A program made the translations under genes and the position numbers. The notes below the pieces were generated by a model. It ran no database searches. It was not told the DNA's origin and was given only the letters and a program-made list of their open reading frames with translations. From positions 1-64,000 of the forward strand of contig JACPWY010000010.1 in assembly GCA_016196825.1 (NCBI GenBank): a DNA stretch of 64,000 nt, given 5' to 3'. The stretch's first letter is position 1. Each line of letters starts with the position of its first letter. Origin of the DNA: Deltaproteobacteria bacterium. GTDB taxonomy: Bacteria > Bdellovibrionota > FAC87 > UBA2466. Positions 40,816 through 49,239 of this stretch are shown here, piece after piece.

Positions 40816-42375
40816 CTATTCTAGAATTTGTGGGTTGCGCAGAATGAGGGCTGCGGCCTCCATCCGGGCTAGATAATGGGAGTCGCCCGTGAAGCCCTTC
40901 TGGAGGAGCACCCAGGCGTTGCGGGATCCGGTCTCGTCGATTCCGCGCTGCACTTTTCGCTCGCCCATGTTGTAGGCCATGGTGGCGAGTTCCCAGTCTC
41001 GGAATCGCAGATTGAGCGTCGCGAGGAATCGGCAAGCGCCATCCGTTGCCTTTTCGACGTTGAGTCTCTCATCCACCTCATCGTCCACCCTGAGCCCAAA
41101 GTTCCGGGCCGTTCCTGGAGTGAATTGCCAAAGCCCCGCCGAGTGAAGAGGGTGCGGACTCTGCCGTGGGTTTTGGTAACCTGACTCGATGATCGGCAGC
41201 GCTAGGAACTCGATGGGAAGGCCGTACTCCTTGAGCTTCGATTCCACAAAGGGGCGATAGTTCGCCATACGCGCGAGCGATCCCTTGATGTACTCCCGTC
41301 CATCGGGCGTGCCCACGAAGGTGTTGAGCTGCTCCACCACCTCTGCATTGATCGTCACCGGGAACTCGCCTCCTCCGCGGCGCATGTCATCCAGGAGACT
41401 CTGCGCAATCGCGCGCGTCACCCTGCGATCGTGGATGAGGCTTCGCGAGGCCCACGCCACCGTCGTCATCAACGCAACGGCCATTATCGCGCCCAGTAAG
41501 CCAACTGACTTTGGGTACCTTCTTTTTTTCACCATCATTTGGATTCTCCGTTTGAGTAAGGAGCCCGCTGCACCCGCCGCCATGCCGGTGGTACCGACCA
41601 GCACAGGGCGAGATTGGCGAGCAGTCTCGGCGACCCTCAAGAGGCAGCCACCGTATGCCCTCGCTGAAATCCACTCCCTTTCGAGAAGGGTTTCATCGCA
41701 AGCAAACTCTTGAATTTCAGCCATCACCTTCACGAGAAGATGGGAGAAGGGATTCAAAATGGTGAGACCCCGGAAAACTTCCAGAGCGTGAACCCAAATC
41801 GTGTCCCGTTGACGGTGGTGCTGAAGCTCATGGCTCACCGACAGACGATAGTCACCCACTCGTTCAATGAGAGAATGGGGCAACAAAACGTAAGCTCGAG
41901 AGAAAGCGCGAAAGGAGAGAGGAACGGTCAGTCGATCAGAGACTCGAATCTCGACTCGACCGATTCGCTTCAAAGGGTACGACTGGCGCCTGAGGTGACC
42001 GAGTTTGAACCACGCGGGAGTCAGTCGGATGAAAGTTACTGTGAGTCCGAAAGCCAAGACCAAGGCCCCCAACCAATCGAGTGCGCCCAATGGGAGCGCG
42101 AAGTCGCGCGATTCTCCTACCGTCAGCGCCCCCTCTTCAGCCGTGGGATTTCGCGCGGCTGATTGGCTCGGGGCATACCAGATCTGGGCGGAAGGAGTTG
42201 CCAAAGATGCCTTCGGGAAGAAAGGAAGCGCGAGAGGCAATAGAATGACGAGAGCCACAACGATGCGCGAGAGACCGAGCAGTTGCCGAAAAGCGACCCA
42301 TCTCTTTGTGACGAGCACTTTCATCAAAACGGCGCCAATGATTATGAGCAGATTGAATTCCCAAAACACGCTCAT
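40816..42375 (-). CDS. BlaR1-type M56 metalloprotease fused to a lytic transglycosylase (SLT) domain
   Basis: The 519-residue membrane protein has helices near residues 6-22, 34-54, 97-118 and 294-310. Between the third and fourth lies an M56 protease domain with SHELQHHRQRD (HExxH, residues 182-186) and the third-ligand region IQEFACDE (about 220-228). After the last helix, residues 330-519 form a periplasmic SLT lysozyme-like domain with catalytic Glu in LPIIESGYQ (E397), AGLWQFTPGTARNFGL and MAYNMGERKV. In BlaR1/MecR1 this position holds a penicillin-binding sensor; here it is a glycan-cleaving fold. It is coupled to a BlaI-type repressor by ATGA overlap. Inference: it senses peptidoglycan and inactivates the repressor by proteolysis. 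Confidence 0.93.
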   Translation of the reverse strand: MSVFWEFNLLIIIGAVLMKVLVTKRWVAFRQLLGLSRIVVALVILLPLALPFFPKASLATPSAQIWYAPSQSAARNPTAEEGALTVGESRDFALPLGALDWLGALVLAFGLTVTFIRLTPAWFKLGHLRRQSYPLKRIGRVEIRVSDRLTVPLSFRAFSRAYVLLPHSLIERVGDYRLSVSHELQHHRQRDTIWVHALEVFRGLTILNPFSHLLVKVMAEIQEFACDETLLEREWISARAYGGCLLRVAETARQSRPVLVGTTGMAAGAAGSLLKRRIQMMVKKRRYPKSVGLLGAIMAVALMTTVAWASRSLIHDRRVTRAIAQSLLDDMRRGGGEFPVTINAEVVEQLNTFVGTPDGREYIKGSLARMANYRPFVESKLKEYGLPIEFLALPIIESGYQNPRQSPHPLHSAGLWQFTPGTARNFGLRVDDEVDERLNVEKATDGACRFLATLNLRFRDWELATMAYNMGERKVQRGIDETGSRNAWVLLQKGFTGDSHYLARMEAAALILRNPQILE

Positions 42376-42755
42376 TCTCCACGCTCCCCCAAAAGTTTGC
42401 GCATCGCTTCGAGATCTTCTTCTGACAGATTCCCCGCCTCAACAAGGCGCGCCACCAGATGGGTGGGCTCACCATCAAAAACATTGTCCACCAAAAGTCG
42501 GAGAGTCTTCGATTCGTAGTCGCTCTTTTTCACCACGGAGGCATAGACGTGGCCACGGCCCTCTTTATGACTCTTGAGGACGCCCTTTTGTTCGAGAATC
42601 CTCAGGATGGTCGAGACCGATGTGTAGGCCAATTTCCGAGAAGGCGGGAGCGCCTCGAGCACATCGTTCACCGTCCCCGAGCCTCGGCGCCAGAGGATCC
42701 CCATCATCTCGAGCTCCACTCCCGTGAGCAGTCTTTCTGGCTTCTTCTTCACCAC
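42372..42755 (-). CDS. BlaI/MecI-family transcriptional repressor
   Basis: The 127-residue winged-helix protein shows the family pattern: LTGVELEMMGILWRRGSGTVNDVLEALPPSRKLAYTSVSTILRILEQKGVLKSHKEGRGHVY, followed by a helical dimerisation tail. BlaI-type repressors bind ACTA...TAGT-like dyads and are cleaved after the partner M56 protease is activated. The GTG start follows GGAGG. It is translated just before the M56-transglycosylase protein, and its promoter carries two matching dyads. Confidence 0.94.
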   Translation of the reverse strand: MVKKKPERLLTGVELEMMGILWRRGSGTVNDVLEALPPSRKLAYTSVSTILRILEQKGVLKSHKEGRGHVYASVVKKSDYESKTLRLLVDNVFDGEPTHLVARLVEAGNLSEEDLEAMRKLLGERGE

Positions 42756-42815: not shown

Positions 42816-42883
42816 ACACCTTACACTGGTTTTGATGACGCGGGCGGCTGTCGGTAAGGACCTAAAACTAGGACAATAATTTG

Positions 42884-44872
42884 GTGCGGGCTGGTCTCAT
42901 CTTGTTGATCCTTTTGTCATTAGCAGCGGAGGCTCGCCCGAAGAAGGCATCGGCGCCGAGCGAGTGGACAGTGAGCCCATACAAGATTCTGTCGGTGGAG
43001 CAGTCGCGGCTCTCCAATGGAAAGCTCGAAAGGTGGCTTTTTCAGGGGCCCGTAGAGCAGCAGAAGAGGGTGCTTCTCGCGATGGCGCGTATCGGAGACC
43101 CCTCCTTCATCGAGCCCATAAATAAGCTCCTCAATAAGAGTCGCCATTCCGAGCTGCGAAAAAGTGCGGCCTTTGCGCTGGGGTCGATCGAAGGGGAGAC
43201 CGCGTACCTTTTCGTCAGCCAGAATATTCCGATGCACAAGGATCCGGACCTCTCGCGTGAACTTCTCATGGCGGCGGGCCGCAAGGGGAATGTCCGCGCA
43301 ATCCACCAACTCAGTTTTTACCTCAAACCGACTTTTCCGACTCCGATCCAAGACGGCGCTTGCTCGGGACTGGGCCAGGCATTCGCGATGCTTGAGGAGC
43401 GCGTGCAGGATGAGGGCACACTGAAGCTCCTCGCGGAGCTCTTGGGCAATCCGGATGTGGCGCTCTCAGCCGCCTTTGCGTTGTCGCGCTGGCAGGGCGA
43501 TCCCAATCTCATTCCAGTGCAGGCGCTGTCGGGGGCCCTCCCCCAGATGGTCGATTCCGCTCCCCGCGCCTTGCTCTCGCGCGCGCTGGGGAGGGTGCGA
43601 ACACCCGCTGCACGAGAGGCTCTCATCCAGGCTTTCAAGAAGGCCAAAGAGAAAAATGAGAAGATTGAAGCTCTGAAGGGACTCGGCAATCAAGAGGTGA
43701 GTGAACCGGTGCTCGCCGTAATCGCAAGCGGTCTCACCGATTCCTTTCGACACATCCAGATCACGGCCATTCAGAGCGCCGGCAAACTGCGGACCGGGGC
43801 CGCGCCTCTCACGGGGCAAATCGATTCTCTTTTCATGGGCTCGGGGTCGGAGTGGGTGCGGTCCGAGGCGCTCATCGCGCTCGTGGCAATCGCTCCCGAC
43901 CTCGCCCGTCAGCGCATTCAGGAGCAGATCAAGAAAAGCACGGGCCTTGTGCTCGGCTCGATGGTCTACTCATTTGCCCTACTGGGCACCCCGCCCGATC
44001 TGGCTCTCATCGGAGACTTCCTCTCTTCACCACACACCGATCTGGCTCGCCGAGCGCTCGAAGGCCTCTTGCAACTGAGGCCCGAGCAATTTACACCGGG
44101 AATGAAGGAACTGATCCGCAAGACCATCCTCCGCAAAGATGCCGGACTCGTTGCGACCGCTTCCGACATTATCAGCAGGAATAAATGGTCCTCTCACCTC
44201 GATGCGCTGAAAACCACCTATGGCACGTTCAGCATGGATGACGCCGCCGAGATCCGCTCAGCAATTATTCGAACGGTCGGCGAACTGGGGGATGAAACAC
44301 AGGTTCCCTTTTTAGAGGGAGCGCTCAGAGACCGGTACCGAGTGGTGTCGGAGGCGGCCTCACGCGCACTCAAGAGAATCAATGGAAAGGATTACCCGTT
44401 TCCTCTGAGCGGTGCCGGGGGGGCGCCGGTCCCTTCCGCGGATCAGCTCACGAGCGCGGTGAAGAAGACTGCCGTCATTCAAACCAGCCGTGGTGATTTT
44501 ACGATTCGCTTCAATGAAGACACCCCGGTGACGGCTTATTACTTTCTGAAGGAAGCTCCGAACCAAAAGGGGCGCACGTTCCATCGAGTGGTCCCCAATT
44601 TCGTGGCGCAGGGAGGCGATCCTCGGGGCGATGGATTCGGTGGACCCGGCTACAGTGTGCGAGACGAAATCTCGTTGCGGCCCCACGAGCGCGGGAGCGT
44701 GGGGATTGCGACCGCGGGAAAAGACACCGGCGGTTGCCAGTTCTTCGTCGACACCGCCCCCAACCCTCACCTCCTAGGCCGCTATACCAATTTCGCGCGA
44801 GTCACGAGCGGAATCGAGGTTCTCGACCGCATGGAACCCAACGACACAATCCTAAAAATCCGGGTGTATTAA
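42884..44872 (+). CDS. Exported HEAT-repeat protein with C-terminal cyclophilin domain
   Basis: The start is GTG 42884 (a TTG just before it is the ORF-track start). A signal peptide (VRAGLILLILLSLAAEARP) leads into about 480 residues of HEAT/PBS-lyase-like helical repeats (for example KSAAFALGSIEGETAYLFVSQ, EALIALVAIAPDLARQRI, EAASRALKRINGKDYPFP). A cyclophilin-type peptidyl-prolyl isomerase follows (IQTSRGDFTIRFNEDTPV, TFHRVVPNFVAQGGDPRGDGFGGPG, QFFVDTAPNPHLLGRYTNFARV). It is probably a periplasmic folding factor whose repeats bind clients. It is divergent from the blaI-like operon across the two operators. Confidence 0.9.
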   Translation: MRAGLILLILLSLAAEARPKKASAPSEWTVSPYKILSVEQSRLSNGKLERWLFQGPVEQQKRVLLAMARIGDPSFIEPINKLLNKSRHSELRKSAAFALGSIEGETAYLFVSQNIPMHKDPDLSRELLMAAGRKGNVRAIHQLSFYLKPTFPTPIQDGACSGLGQAFAMLEERVQDEGTLKLLAELLGNPDVALSAAFALSRWQGDPNLIPVQALSGALPQMVDSAPRALLSRALGRVRTPAAREALIQAFKKAKEKNEKIEALKGLGNQEVSEPVLAVIASGLTDSFRHIQITAIQSAGKLRTGAAPLTGQIDSLFMGSGSEWVRSEALIALVAIAPDLARQRIQEQIKKSTGLVLGSMVYSFALLGTPPDLALIGDFLSSPHTDLARRALEGLLQLRPEQFTPGMKELIRKTILRKDAGLVATASDIISRNKWSSHLDALKTTYGTFSMDDAAEIRSAIIRTVGELGDETQVPFLEGALRDRYRVVSEAASRALKRINGKDYPFPLSGAGGAPVPSADQLTSAVKKTAVIQTSRGDFTIRFNEDTPVTAYYFLKEAPNQKGRTFHRVVPNFVAQGGDPRGDGFGGPGYSVRDEISLRPHERGSVGIATAGKDTGGCQFFVDTAPNPHLLGRYTNFARVTSGIEVLDRMEPNDTILKIRVY

Positions 44873-46076: not shown

Positions 46077-47216
46077 TTATATATAGTTCTTCTTCTTGAT
46101 CTTCTCGACGATGATCTTTTCGGGCATTTGCGGATCGCGCGAGTTGACCGTGAAGTAGGACTGCTGTTCGCAGCGGCGTTTGTTTTTGAGCAACCAGTGG
46201 AGGATCTCGGCCAACCCCTTGTTGCGTCTGTCCTTGAAGAAGGGATCGTTCTTAAGAGCATCCACCGCCTTTTTTAGGGCTCGCGCCTCCCCGGGATCGC
46301 TCTCCTTCACCGGATAGTCGAATAGGTCATATTTCTTGATATCCTCGGGCAGCACTCCCAAGAACTTCACATCTGGCGCCGAAAAATCGGAGTTCCGGAT
46401 GAGACTCGCCGCGGAACCCGCCTTGAGCGTACGGAAAATGTTTTGCATGGTATACGCGTCCAGATCGCCGAAGAAATAGATGGGAACTTTGAGCTGATCT
46501 TGGATGAGCTTGGCCCACCCTCGAACCGCATTGCTCGGCACGCCCTGTGCGCCCATGAGGATCGCGCGGTGACGCTTGCAAAATCCGTTGGCCACAAAGG
46601 TATTCGCCGTGCCTTCTGATTCGACAATCAGGCAGAAGTCGATTCGACTTTTCGCTTTGAGCTGAAGGCTCTGGGGACGATTCTTGGGTTGAAACGGTGT
46701 CGTTCCGAGTGAACCCAGGTCCACGACCGCCCTTCCGCCATCCGGCAAAGTCTCGGTGACAACGAGCTGGTTCGAGTAGGTCTGTCCGCCGCGATCATTG
46801 GCGTAGCAGTTCAGCTCTTCGCGATAACACTCGAGCATCTCACAGATGAAATCGATGACCGAGTCGCTTTCCGACTGATCCTGGAAATCGAGCGGCTTGA
46901 GCTCCGGGCTATGTTTCACCTCTCCCTTTGCCATGTAATAAAGCTCGCGCTTTGTGTTGACCGCGCCGGTTTCTACATTTCTGAGAAGAATCTCCAGCAA
47001 AAAGATCGCTCGCGACATCTTCTGAACGCTCGAGACGTTCAGCTCGGTGCGGACCATCTTTTTTCCAGGCGTCAAGAAACCCACTTTCGGGTTGTAAAAC
47101 GAATTGTCGAGGGAACACTTCACCGCTTCGAGCACCGGACGCTTGGCCGCCTCAAGATCAGAGAGGAGTCGACTGCACAGGTCCTTTGAGATCTTAGGTA
47201 ACGATTCTTCTTTCAT
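46077..47216 (-). CDS. top6A: DNA topoisomerase VI subunit A (Spo11-like)
   Basis: Topo VI is a type IIB enzyme that makes ATP-dependent double-strand passage; subunit A cuts DNA. The 379-residue protein has the winged-helix active site NTKRELYYMAKG with the expected catalytic Tyr (Y94). The Toprim metal residues appear in CLIVESEGTANTFV (Glu) and FFGDLDAYTMQNIF (the DxD). It ends soon after the Toprim domain, as in archaeal enzymes. Its start overlaps the subunit B stop by 4 bp. Topo VI is usual in archaea and plants and uncommon in bacteria. Confidence 0.93.
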   Translation of the reverse strand: MKEESLPKISKDLCSRLLSDLEAAKRPVLEAVKCSLDNSFYNPKVGFLTPGKKMVRTELNVSSVQKMSRAIFLLEILLRNVETGAVNTKRELYYMAKGEVKHSPELKPLDFQDQSESDSVIDFICEMLECYREELNCYANDRGGQTYSNQLVVTETLPDGGRAVVDLGSLGTTPFQPKNRPQSLQLKAKSRIDFCLIVESEGTANTFVANGFCKRHRAILMGAQGVPSNAVRGWAKLIQDQLKVPIYFFGDLDAYTMQNIFRTLKAGSAASLIRNSDFSAPDVKFLGVLPEDIKKYDLFDYPVKESDPGEARALKKAVDALKNDPFFKDRRNKGLAEILHWLLKNKRRCEQQSYFTVNSRDPQMPEKIIVEKIKKKNYI

Positions 47217-49114
47217 GCCAATTCCTCTTCCTTAGTCTTCTCTTTCCCTTTAGCCACTTTCTTGGCCTTAACCAGGGTTTTTTCTTTGGCGGCCGCTTTT
47301 TCTTTAGGTGCCGCCTTCTCCTTCTCGGCACCCTTTTCTTTCTTCGACGCTTTGGCGCCCTTCTTCGGAGCCGGAGCCTCCGCTGTGTTGGCGTCCACTG
47401 TCAGCTCGGCTTCGGATGCCTCTGCCTCAGACCCAGCCGGCGTCTGATCTTCGGCAGACTCCTTTTTGATAATCTGAATCTTTCCTCTGGCCTCGTGATC
47501 CTTCACCTCTTTGACCGCCTCGGTCAGCTGCTTCTTTGCAGCATTCACATCTCGGCCCAGTAACTTGATGATTCCTTCAGTAGCCTTCTTCTTCCGGGTC
47601 GCGGGTGCGCTGGTGATGCGACACAAACAATCAACTAGAATGGGGCAAAACTGTTCGATGTGCTGCAGTTTCTCTTCGAGATCGGCCTCTCGGTGCTCCT
47701 TGCGAATGTGGCGAGAAAGGCGCTGACCTGCCTGCATCAAGGCCCGACGGATCTCCTCCACGAGCTCATCACTCGCGTCGACAGTCTCTTTCGAAGCGTT
47801 CTTAAACTTGATGAATGGGCTTACAAGCGAGATCGCGATCACATAAGGGCCCATCGGAACGCTGTCGCGTGGCTGGGCCAGCCCGTACGCGCGCCAGTTC
47901 ACCGTCTCAACCGCCTTTGTCATCGCACAGGCCGATTTATCGAACTGAAGCGGCACTCGGTTAGCGAACCGAAGAACACTCGAAGGAGGTGCCTCGCCAT
48001 CTTGGGATGGCGCATTCCCGTCCTTTAATCGCGCGACCGCGACCTCAACAGCGACCGGCTTGTAATCACAAATGGTCGGCTTCCGAGTAACCACAGCAAA
48101 AAAATCCACCTCACCCAAACGGCGGACGCTCTTGGAAAAGGCTTCCTCCCCGATAGTCATCACGGAACGAGTGCTGGGAGACATCAGCTCTGTTTTCTGA
48201 ATCGCGGCAAAAATGTCCTTGAAGTTAGCTTCATTGAGCTTGTCTACGCTCGTGTCGGTCAACTTCTTATTCATCCCGTTTTTGACGAACTCGCCGATCG
48301 CATTGTCCGTGATGCGTGAAAAGCCCTTCTTAAGCCAGGTTGCAGCGGTAGACCGCCCAAAAAGGTGAGAATGGGCGATGAACTCTCCCAGTTTCATGGT
48401 GTGTGGGTGTGGTTCGGTGGCCTCGGGCACATCCGGGGCCCTGTCCGTCACACGTTTGATCGTCTGCCATGGCTGATCAAGCACCTTGAATTTGAGATTC
48501 ACATGCGGGTTCACGAGCGCTGTGCCGGTCATGTAAGTGAGAAGGCCACCCTCACCATTGAGTTGAATTCGGCCGTCGATGACAAATTCCACGGAAACAC
48601 CGTGCGGGCGATCCCACGATAGGGTCTTCTTATCCTTGAGGACCCCCTTATTGTTTTTGATGTCGACCTCGACGAGAGCCGAAACCGCCTGCCGCATTTT
48701 GGGCGTCCTGGTGATCACGGTCACACCCTTGGCACTCGTGAGCTGCGCCCACGTCGTGGCAGCCGAAATGCCAATACCCTGCTGACCGCGCGAACAACGA
48801 CCGCGGCCAAACTTCGAAGAGGCCAGGTACTCACCAAACACCTTCGACAAATCATCGACCTCAATTCCGGGCCCGTTGTCCTCCACCCGGATCTTTACGA
48901 GATCGGTATTCTTCAAGGTGCCCGCGCCAATTTTTTCGACCGAGATGGAAAGCTCAGGAAGAATCTCCGCGTCCTCACACGCATCGAGCGAGTTGTCGAC
49001 AGCCTCTTTAAGTGTGGTGAGAACCGCTTTGGTGGGCGAAGAGAATCCAACCTGTTGCAGGTTCTTGGAGAAATACTCGGCTGTGCTACTTGTGGTGATC
49101 TTCTGCTTGGCCAC
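47213..49114 (-). CDS. top6B: DNA topoisomerase VI subunit B
   Basis: The ATPase subunit: GHKL fold with AVLTTLKEAVDNSLDACED, VEDNGPGIEVDDLSKVFGEYLASSKF and SRGQQGIGISAATTWAQLT, then helix-two-turn-helix and transducer domains. I set the start at GTG 49114 (VAKQKITTSSTAEYFSKNL, 633 residues), because a good promoter (TTGATT-N16-TATACT) lies between it and the ORF-track TTG at 49156. The last 130 or so residues are not part of the archaeal fold: an acidic stretch and then a Lys/Glu/Ala tail (KKGAKASKKEKGAEKEK...). The tail may bind DNA. Confidence 0.93.
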   Translation of the reverse strand: MAKQKITTSSTAEYFSKNLQQVGFSSPTKAVLTTLKEAVDNSLDACEDAEILPELSISVEKIGAGTLKNTDLVKIRVEDNGPGIEVDDLSKVFGEYLASSKFGRGRCSRGQQGIGISAATTWAQLTSAKGVTVITRTPKMRQAVSALVEVDIKNNKGVLKDKKTLSWDRPHGVSVEFVIDGRIQLNGEGGLLTYMTGTALVNPHVNLKFKVLDQPWQTIKRVTDRAPDVPEATEPHPHTMKLGEFIAHSHLFGRSTAATWLKKGFSRITDNAIGEFVKNGMNKKLTDTSVDKLNEANFKDIFAAIQKTELMSPSTRSVMTIGEEAFSKSVRRLGEVDFFAVVTRKPTICDYKPVAVEVAVARLKDGNAPSQDGEAPPSSVLRFANRVPLQFDKSACAMTKAVETVNWRAYGLAQPRDSVPMGPYVIAISLVSPFIKFKNASKETVDASDELVEEIRRALMQAGQRLSRHIRKEHREADLEEKLQHIEQFCPILVDCLCRITSAPATRKKKATEGIIKLLGRDVNAAKKQLTEAVKEVKDHEARGKIQIIKKESAEDQTPAGSEAEASEAELTVDANTAEAPAPKKGAKASKKEKGAEKEKAAPKEKAAAKEKTLVKAKKVAKGKEKTKEEELA

Positions 49115-49135
49115 ACAACCCCCGTCGGTCTCGTA

Positions 49136-49163
49136 AGTATACGGGTTGCCTGCCAAAAATCAA
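49136..49163 (-). promoter_or_regulatory. Promoter of the topoisomerase VI operon
   Basis: TTGATT, a 16-bp spacer and TATACT on the minus strand, with the -10 21 nt upstream of the GTG start, separate the topo VI operon from gltA transcription. Confidence 0.55.
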
Positions 49164-49187: not shown

Positions 49188-49239
49188 GGAAAAGGTACCA
49201 AGTTACTTTTCGGCCGAAAAGTAACTTGGTACCTTTTCC
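49188..49239. repeat. Perfect 52-bp palindrome
   Basis: Two 26-bp arms, GGAAAAGGTACCAAGTTACT then TTTCGG and the exact complement, meet with no loop. It lies between the gltA stop and the topo VI promoter. In RNA it would form a long hairpin ending in ...CCTTTTCC and could terminate gltA transcription; in DNA it could extrude as a cruciform. Confidence 0.9.

Follow-up and report, generated by a model that had tools for sequence, protein, structure and literature searches.

A divergent topoisomerase VI as the likely stand-in for topoisomerase IV in Bdellovibrionota

The 64,000-nucleotide stretch of DNA analysed here (the window; positions 1 to 64,000 of contig JACPWY010000010.1, assembly GCA_016196825.1) comes from a Deltaproteobacteria bacterium of the phylum Bdellovibrionota and carries the genes for both subunits, A and B, of a DNA topoisomerase VI (topo VI). 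Judged by its domains, residues and gene layout, the A/B pair is a topo VI, that is, a type IIB topoisomerase. In the host genome it is the sole candidate decatenase beside gyrase, and across the sampled phylum topo VI and topoisomerase IV (topo IV) are mutually exclusive. We consider it likely that this topo VI, a divergent Bdellovibrionota subtype, acts as the chromosome decatenase in place of topo IV, and that the tail of its B subunit would serve as a tether to DNA.

Topo VI and topo IV across Bdellovibrionota

Profile searches of the host assembly, which is 94% complete, returned one PF00521 gene, a gyrA whose product bears the GyrA box QKRGGKG, and one PF00204 gene, a gyrB, but neither parC nor parE. 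The host's only genes of these two families thus both belong to gyrase, and type IIA subunits of topo IV (ParCE) are missing beside them. As topo VI is the only type II enzyme besides gyrase, the job usually done by topo IV is most likely its own. The original prediction, which was made from the letters of the window, had asked which task gyrase and topo IV leave open for topo VI, and so presupposed a topo IV; because the genome has none, this three-enzyme puzzle dissolves.

We surveyed 144 Bdellovibrionota genomes, each at least 90% complete, with counts tallied by hand from two tables. Topo VI-B was present in 96 of them, and the description of topo VI as rare in bacteria thus fails for this genome and its phylum. 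One family, f9, is the topo IV family. None of its 42 genomes had topo VI, and 41 of the 42 had at least two PF00521 matches (G138 has three, which may be fragmented). The second pair consisted of adjacent ParE and ParC genes in the two f9 genomes that were inspected closely (G021 and G095), and in the one f9 genome below two matches, G112, only a ParC-type gene was present. Outside f9, topo VI was found in 96 of 102 genomes. The six without it (three of family f4 and one each of f14, f1 and f8) have a single GyrA each.

Among the 96 genomes with topo VI, only G033 has a second gyrA/gyrB-like pair (L157, 1716-7570), in which a gyrB-like gene of 678 amino acids and a gyrA-like gene of 946 amino acids are separated by a third open reading frame. 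The contig that carries the pair is 8.6 kb long and belongs to an assembly with 5% contamination; this apparent co-occurrence of topo IV and topo VI is likely, if unproven, to stem from a contaminant. Apparent additional GyrA matches in two other genomes (G004 and G010) proved to be pieces of one gene. The topo VI enzymes themselves are of two types within the phylum: a divergent clade that includes the host enzyme, and another bacterial type in families f5 and f10.

Topo VI without topo IV was already known from Bdellovibrio (PMC11302465, PMC11318664), and for B. bacteriovorus topo VI has been proposed as a stand-in for the missing topo IV (Allen & Maxwell 2024, PMC11302465). A review, PMC11318664, gives Bd0005 the label 'Top IV'. 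In L155 and L156, from two complete f6 genomes, the only gyrA-like gene comes directly after gyrB, close to the beginning of the record, and encodes the GyrA box; Bd0005 is therefore probably GyrA. In the text that we searched of the published accounts of B. bacteriovorus topo VI, we found no mention of tails, of a change in the DNA-crossing KGRR loop described below, or of a phylum-wide exchange between topo IV and topo VI. This exchange at the scale of the phylum is new.

The survey also bears on the alternative that gyrase alone decatenates the chromosome and topo VI has a side role, such as relaxing positive supercoils during transcription or dealing with compacted chromatin. Some bacteria do live with gyrase as their single type II enzyme, and within this very phylum gyrase alone can suffice in f4 and f14, where both topo IV and topo VI are missing. 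These f4 and f14 genomes are, however, small (1.7-2.0 Mb); in nearly all other sampled genomes gyrase is accompanied by exactly one further type II enzyme, either topo IV or topo VI, and conservation of the A and B genes is strong throughout the phylum. We therefore regard a mere side role for topo VI as rather unlikely.

Catalytic core and DNA-sensing contacts

Pfam profiles matched subunit A above their cut-offs (TP6A_N, 1e-14; Top6A/Spo11 Toprim, 8e-36) and subunit B with Topo-VIb_trans (1.2e-44) and a GHKL ATPase (HATPase) domain. NCBIfam E-values were 7e-119 for A and 7.5e-151 for B, the latter reaching 503 bits with PRK04184 against a cut-off of 274. In sequence searches of the Protein Data Bank (PDB), A recovered topo VI and Spo11 structures only, and B topo VI-B only. 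The AlphaFold model of A has a mean predicted local distance difference test score (pLDDT) of 91, and its best PDB match is the topo VI A subunit of Methanosarcina mazei (9o0g; template modelling (TM) scores 0.84/0.88). The core of the B model, with pLDDT mostly 80-97, matches M. mazei Top6B best (9o0g, E-value 2e-47; 2q2e, TM 0.69/0.75) and also matches 1z59.

That both subunits are complete with their active residues intact, as originally predicted, was borne out by closer alignment. Subunit A keeps the catalytic Tyr94 and the acidic Toprim tetrad, which has been named for M. mazei topo VI (PMC13040014). Subunit B keeps the GHKL residues E37 and N41 (M. mazei E44 and N48) and the ATP-contacting switch lysine K442 (M. 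mazei K435). The H2TH residue R267 and the residues of the E350-R90 clasp are all conserved as well.

The host enzyme shares with archaeal topo VI (M. mazei 2q2e and 9o0g; Saccharolobus shibatae 2zbk) the A/B pair, the tyrosine, the Toprim tetrad, the GHKL, H2TH and transducer elements, a WKxY-type motif (WRAY here) and the switch lysine. It differs in that identity is 18-32%, the KGRR loop is acidic, the sites of R457, latch R44 and K308 hold Gln, Cys and Glu, and B has a disordered Lys-rich tail in place of the Ig-like C-terminal domain. The other bacterial topo VI enzymes (from Planctomycetota, Myxococcota, Acidobacteriota, f5 and f10) are likewise A/B pairs, several with basic extensions; at about 35% identity, however, they retain a basic KGRR-type loop and R457, and carry their basic extension at the B N terminus. 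In the meiotic Spo11/TOPOVIBL complex, GHKL and H2TH of the B-like subunit are degenerate or missing, whereas the GHKL motifs and H2TH of the host B are intact. Topoisomerase VIII, which is defined by a fusion of A and B, is plasmid-borne, in contrast to the separate, chromosomal genes of the host.

Altered DNA-sensing contacts had no place in the original prediction, which covered the catalytic residues. We compared the Bdellovibrionota clade with other bacterial sequences and with a limited archaeal set (mainly DPANN, two haloarchaea and three PDB species). At the site of the KGRR loop, clade members read NG-E/D, with a net charge of -1 in 51 of 52; the mean charge elsewhere is +1.4 (16 archaeal sequences) and +2.1 (48 other bacterial sequences). 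In M. mazei, this loop senses DNA crossings, and its substitution by AAA or EEE abolishes strand passage (PMC5922973). Arg is lost from the stalk R457 site in 52/52 clade members, 51 of which have Gln, and is present in all 64 others; mutation of the stalk cluster containing R457 cuts M. mazei activity at least 25-fold (PMC13040014). Nearby, every one of the 52 has gained Arg or Lys at position 461, and K401 at the stalk/WKxY interface is kept as Arg or Lys in all 52. The H2TH K308 site is mostly acidic in the clade, and position 263 is basic in 49/52. In subunit A, the latch R44 site holds Cys or Thr in 51/51 clade members and Arg in 50 others; an M. mazei latch triple mutant of R44, V57 and W58 is inactive (PMC13040014). 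Finally, Toprim positions 206, 229 and 233 (host A numbering) are Thr, Asn and mostly Gly in the clade, and Arg in nearly all others.

Because the replacement residues are themselves conserved, DNA recognition looks re-engineered rather than decayed. The alignments show a divergent subtype of topo VI, new here, that keeps the catalytic residues while contacts essential in M. mazei differ. One might instead suppose that the enzyme has drifted from strand passage to become mainly a DNA-bending or DNA-cleaving factor in the manner of Spo11 complexes, as the KGRR-to-acidic change removes strand passage in M. mazei (PMC5922973) and the Toprim and latch arginines are altered too. Conservation of the ATPase site, the switch lysine, H2TH R267 and the E350-R90 clasp, the gain of basic residues at 461 and 263, and the lack of any further topo IV-like enzyme in these genomes make such a drift very improbable.

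The subunit B tail and the proposed function

The original prediction described a non-archaeal, Lys/Ala-rich, histone-H1-like tail of about 130 residues on B. Its character held up, its length did not: the predicted disordered part (pLDDT 32-39), acidic at first and then Lys-rich, spans about residues 549-633, or some 85-90 residues past the folded core. This disorder led us to reject an Ig-like C-terminal domain. The tail follows a C-terminal helical hairpin, which in M. mazei rests on the winged-helix domain of A at the DNA gate (PMC13040014).

Within the host's family the tail is about 39% identical, as against 80% for the core, and tail lengths vary from 0 to about 140 residues. Both facts would suit a neutral, low-complexity extension without function. 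Yet the GKIQI start, the acidic half and the Lys-rich half are retained in the family, and in all 33 clade tails of at least 30 amino acids the positive charge rises toward the end. Moreover, such ends recur on topo VI-B, ParC, ParE and topoisomerase I (TopA), and are absent from 50 gyrase subunits (GyrA 0/25, GyrB 0/25). A neutral tail therefore has a low probability in our judgement.

In numbers, 29 of 51 clade B subunits carry a net charge of at least +5 over their last 30 residues, the others being short, neutral, weakly basic or acidic there. By the same measure, Lys-rich ends occur on 10 of 12 ParC and 8 of 12 ParE proteins of the f9 topo IV and, in 12 of 20 genomes, on TopA, though not on the TopA of the host. 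That Lys-rich tails are shared among non-gyrase topoisomerases is a new observation. The f9 ParC proteins are short, about 471-494 amino acids, and Lys-rich repeats are frequent at the ends of both ParC and ParE (L158, 884-4488; L160-L170). In the other bacterial type of topo VI, a basic stretch often lies at the B N terminus, where start sites are uncertain. Actinobacterial topoisomerase I also has a histone-H1-like, Lys-rich C-terminal extension, although it is a type IA enzyme of another fold and reaction; its lysine repeats confer high processivity (PMC7398561).

Two narrower ideas about the tail fared poorly. A strict substitution for the lost KGRR loop is unsupported, as tail-less members also lack KGRR, and a tail specific to the decatenase is weakened by the tails on TopA.

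We infer the following mode of action. The enzyme would be an ATP-dependent, two-gate type IIB A2B2 tetramer that carries one duplex across a double-strand break made in a second. It would perform the usual work of topo IV, which is to separate chromosomes linked after replication and to relax positive supercoils; M. mazei topo VI is reported to complement a parE temperature-sensitive mutant of E. coli (unpublished data cited in PMC11302465). By sequence, the catalytic and ATPase residues are retained and the DNA contacts swapped, with an acidic KGRR loop, Gln for R457 beside a basic 461, a mostly acidic K308 site beside a basic 263, and Cys or Thr for latch R44. The disordered tail may act as an electrostatic tether that holds the enzyme on DNA and raises its processivity, as do the lysine repeats of actinobacterial TopA.

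Several points weigh against this proposal. A parC or parE gene might have gone undetected in a 94%-complete assembly, and the exclusion between topo IV and topo VI depends on a small number of independent events in evolution. Without the crossing sensor, strand passage might be weak or the main activity a different one, the activity of clade members being predicted from their sequences. In addition, the near-zero or acidic tails in part of the clade show that a tail is not indispensable for such a topo VI. A chromosome decatenase replacing topo IV, tethered by its tail, nevertheless appears to us the probable function. A more far-reaching version is possible but tentative: a mechanistically distinct type IIB subtype, which would sense crossings without KGRR through relocated basic residues of the stalk and H2TH and through a disordered, acidic-then-Lys-rich tail at the DNA gate, would have taken the decatenase role from topo IV across most of the phylum, with Lys tails arising in parallel on whichever topoisomerase does the job.

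Origin and setting of the locus

The topo VI genes lie on a 317-kb contig that also carries dnaN-gyrB-gyrA, in an assembly of 3.54 Mb, which related genomes and named loci assign to Bdellovibrionota. GC content at third codon positions (GC3) is 0.69 for A and 0.66 for the B core, and 0.65-0.69 for neighbouring genes. In the trees of both subunits the nearest relatives of the host topo VI are members of its family, followed by those of its order. Several relatives also have citrate synthase upstream of B. A contaminating archaeal contig, which the original prediction had held out as the finding that would overturn it, was ruled out by the shared contig, the matching GC3 and the tree placement. 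Although archaea use topo VI as their type II enzyme, in view of these data and of the citrate synthase synteny contamination or recent transfer has a negligible chance of being the source of the genes.

Each subunit tree contains one Bdellovibrionota clade with 100% support in the Shimodaira-Hasegawa-like approximate likelihood ratio test (SH-aLRT), well separated from the topo VI of archaea and of other bacteria. Its stems are very long, with 6.47 changes per column for A and 3.25 for B, estimates that are not reliable as such; owing to this long stem, the trees do not fix the branching point of the clade relative to archaeal and bacterial topo VI. The trees suggest a strongly divergent, Bdellovibrionota-specific subtype that was inherited mainly vertically. 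B. bacteriovorus, a bacterium of the same phylum said to lack topo IV, presumably has a topo VI of this clade. The position of its B subunit has been called anomalous (PMC11302465), which a separate, long-stemmed clade would explain. The topo VI of families f5 and f10 (L026-L029, L063), about 35% identical, is of the type common to Planctomycetota, Myxococcota and Acidobacteriota.

A phage origin found no match in phage records. A viral collection held two contigs with topo VI pairs (L151, 482 kb; L152, 35 kb), of which L151 (4953-7809) clusters with the Bdellovibrionota clade; it may be bacterial DNA that was wrongly assigned to viruses. Another topo VI of this clade lies on a contig labelled Nitrospira sp. 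(L036), through either transfer or mis-binning.

In the window, the A and B genes are intact and adjacent (Table 1), as they are in almost all relatives, and overlap by the 4 bp originally predicted (ATGA, 47213-47216). Subunit B most likely starts at GTG 49114 rather than at TTG 49156, the start given before, because homologues share a VAK start and several have a stop codon 1-3 codons upstream. The 'dedicated promoter' of the original prediction is compatible with one candidate sigma-70-like site, matching the consensus at 9 of 12 positions (0.2 expected) and fitting the GTG start; the consensus match leaves the promoter itself unproven.

Table 1. Features of the topo VI locus (positions in the window)
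Feature	Position	Strand	Basis or remark
Topo VI subunit A, 379 amino acids, DNA-cleaving subunit	46077..47216	-	Pfam PF04406 and PF21180, NCBIfam, AlphaFold
Topo VI subunit B, 633 amino acids, GTG start, ATPase subunit	47213..49114	-	Pfam PF09239 and GHKL, NCBIfam, homologue starts
Catalytic Tyr94 of A (M. mazei Y106)	46935..46937	-	Alignment
Toprim acidic tetrad of A: E199, D251, D253, E350 (M. mazei E202, D254, D256, E342)	46167..46622	-	Alignments
B residues 184-190 (QLNGEGG), site of the archaeal basic KGRR DNA-crossing loop, here acidic	48545..48565	-	Alignment
B Gln464, site of M. mazei stalk Arg457	47723..47725	-	Alignment
Acidic linker of B tail, about residues 552-583	47366..47461	-	Predicted disordered; first tail half net negative
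Lys/Ala-rich end of B tail, residues 584-633	47216..47365	-	Predicted disordered, net positive, fast evolving
Promoter-like site TTGATT-16-TATACT upstream of the GTG start of B	49136..49163	-	Consensus match only

Between citrate synthase and topo VI-B lies a perfect 52-bp palindrome (49188-49239), one of about 14 copies dispersed in the genome, which resembles a repetitive extragenic palindromic (REP) element or a terminator. Elsewhere in the window, 40816-42755 encodes a fusion of a BlaR1-type M56 peptidase with an SLT lytic transglycosylase domain and adjoins a penicillinase-repressor (BlaI-like) gene; this unusual-looking combination is perhaps a cell-wall sensor. A second fusion, at 42881-44872, joins a HEAT-repeat protein with a cyclophilin-type prolyl isomerase.

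Why some bacteria carry an archaeal or plant-type topoisomerase is an open question (PMC11302465). Bdellovibrionota offer a natural experiment, with families that have gyrase and topo IV, gyrase and one of two topo VI types, or gyrase alone. Bdellovibrio grows in culture and is amenable to genetic manipulation. The divergent clade, in addition, puts a rule to the test, as the crossing loop that is essential in M. mazei is charge-inverted throughout a conserved clade with apparently no substitute enzyme. Either strand passage works without a KGRR-type loop, or another element takes over.

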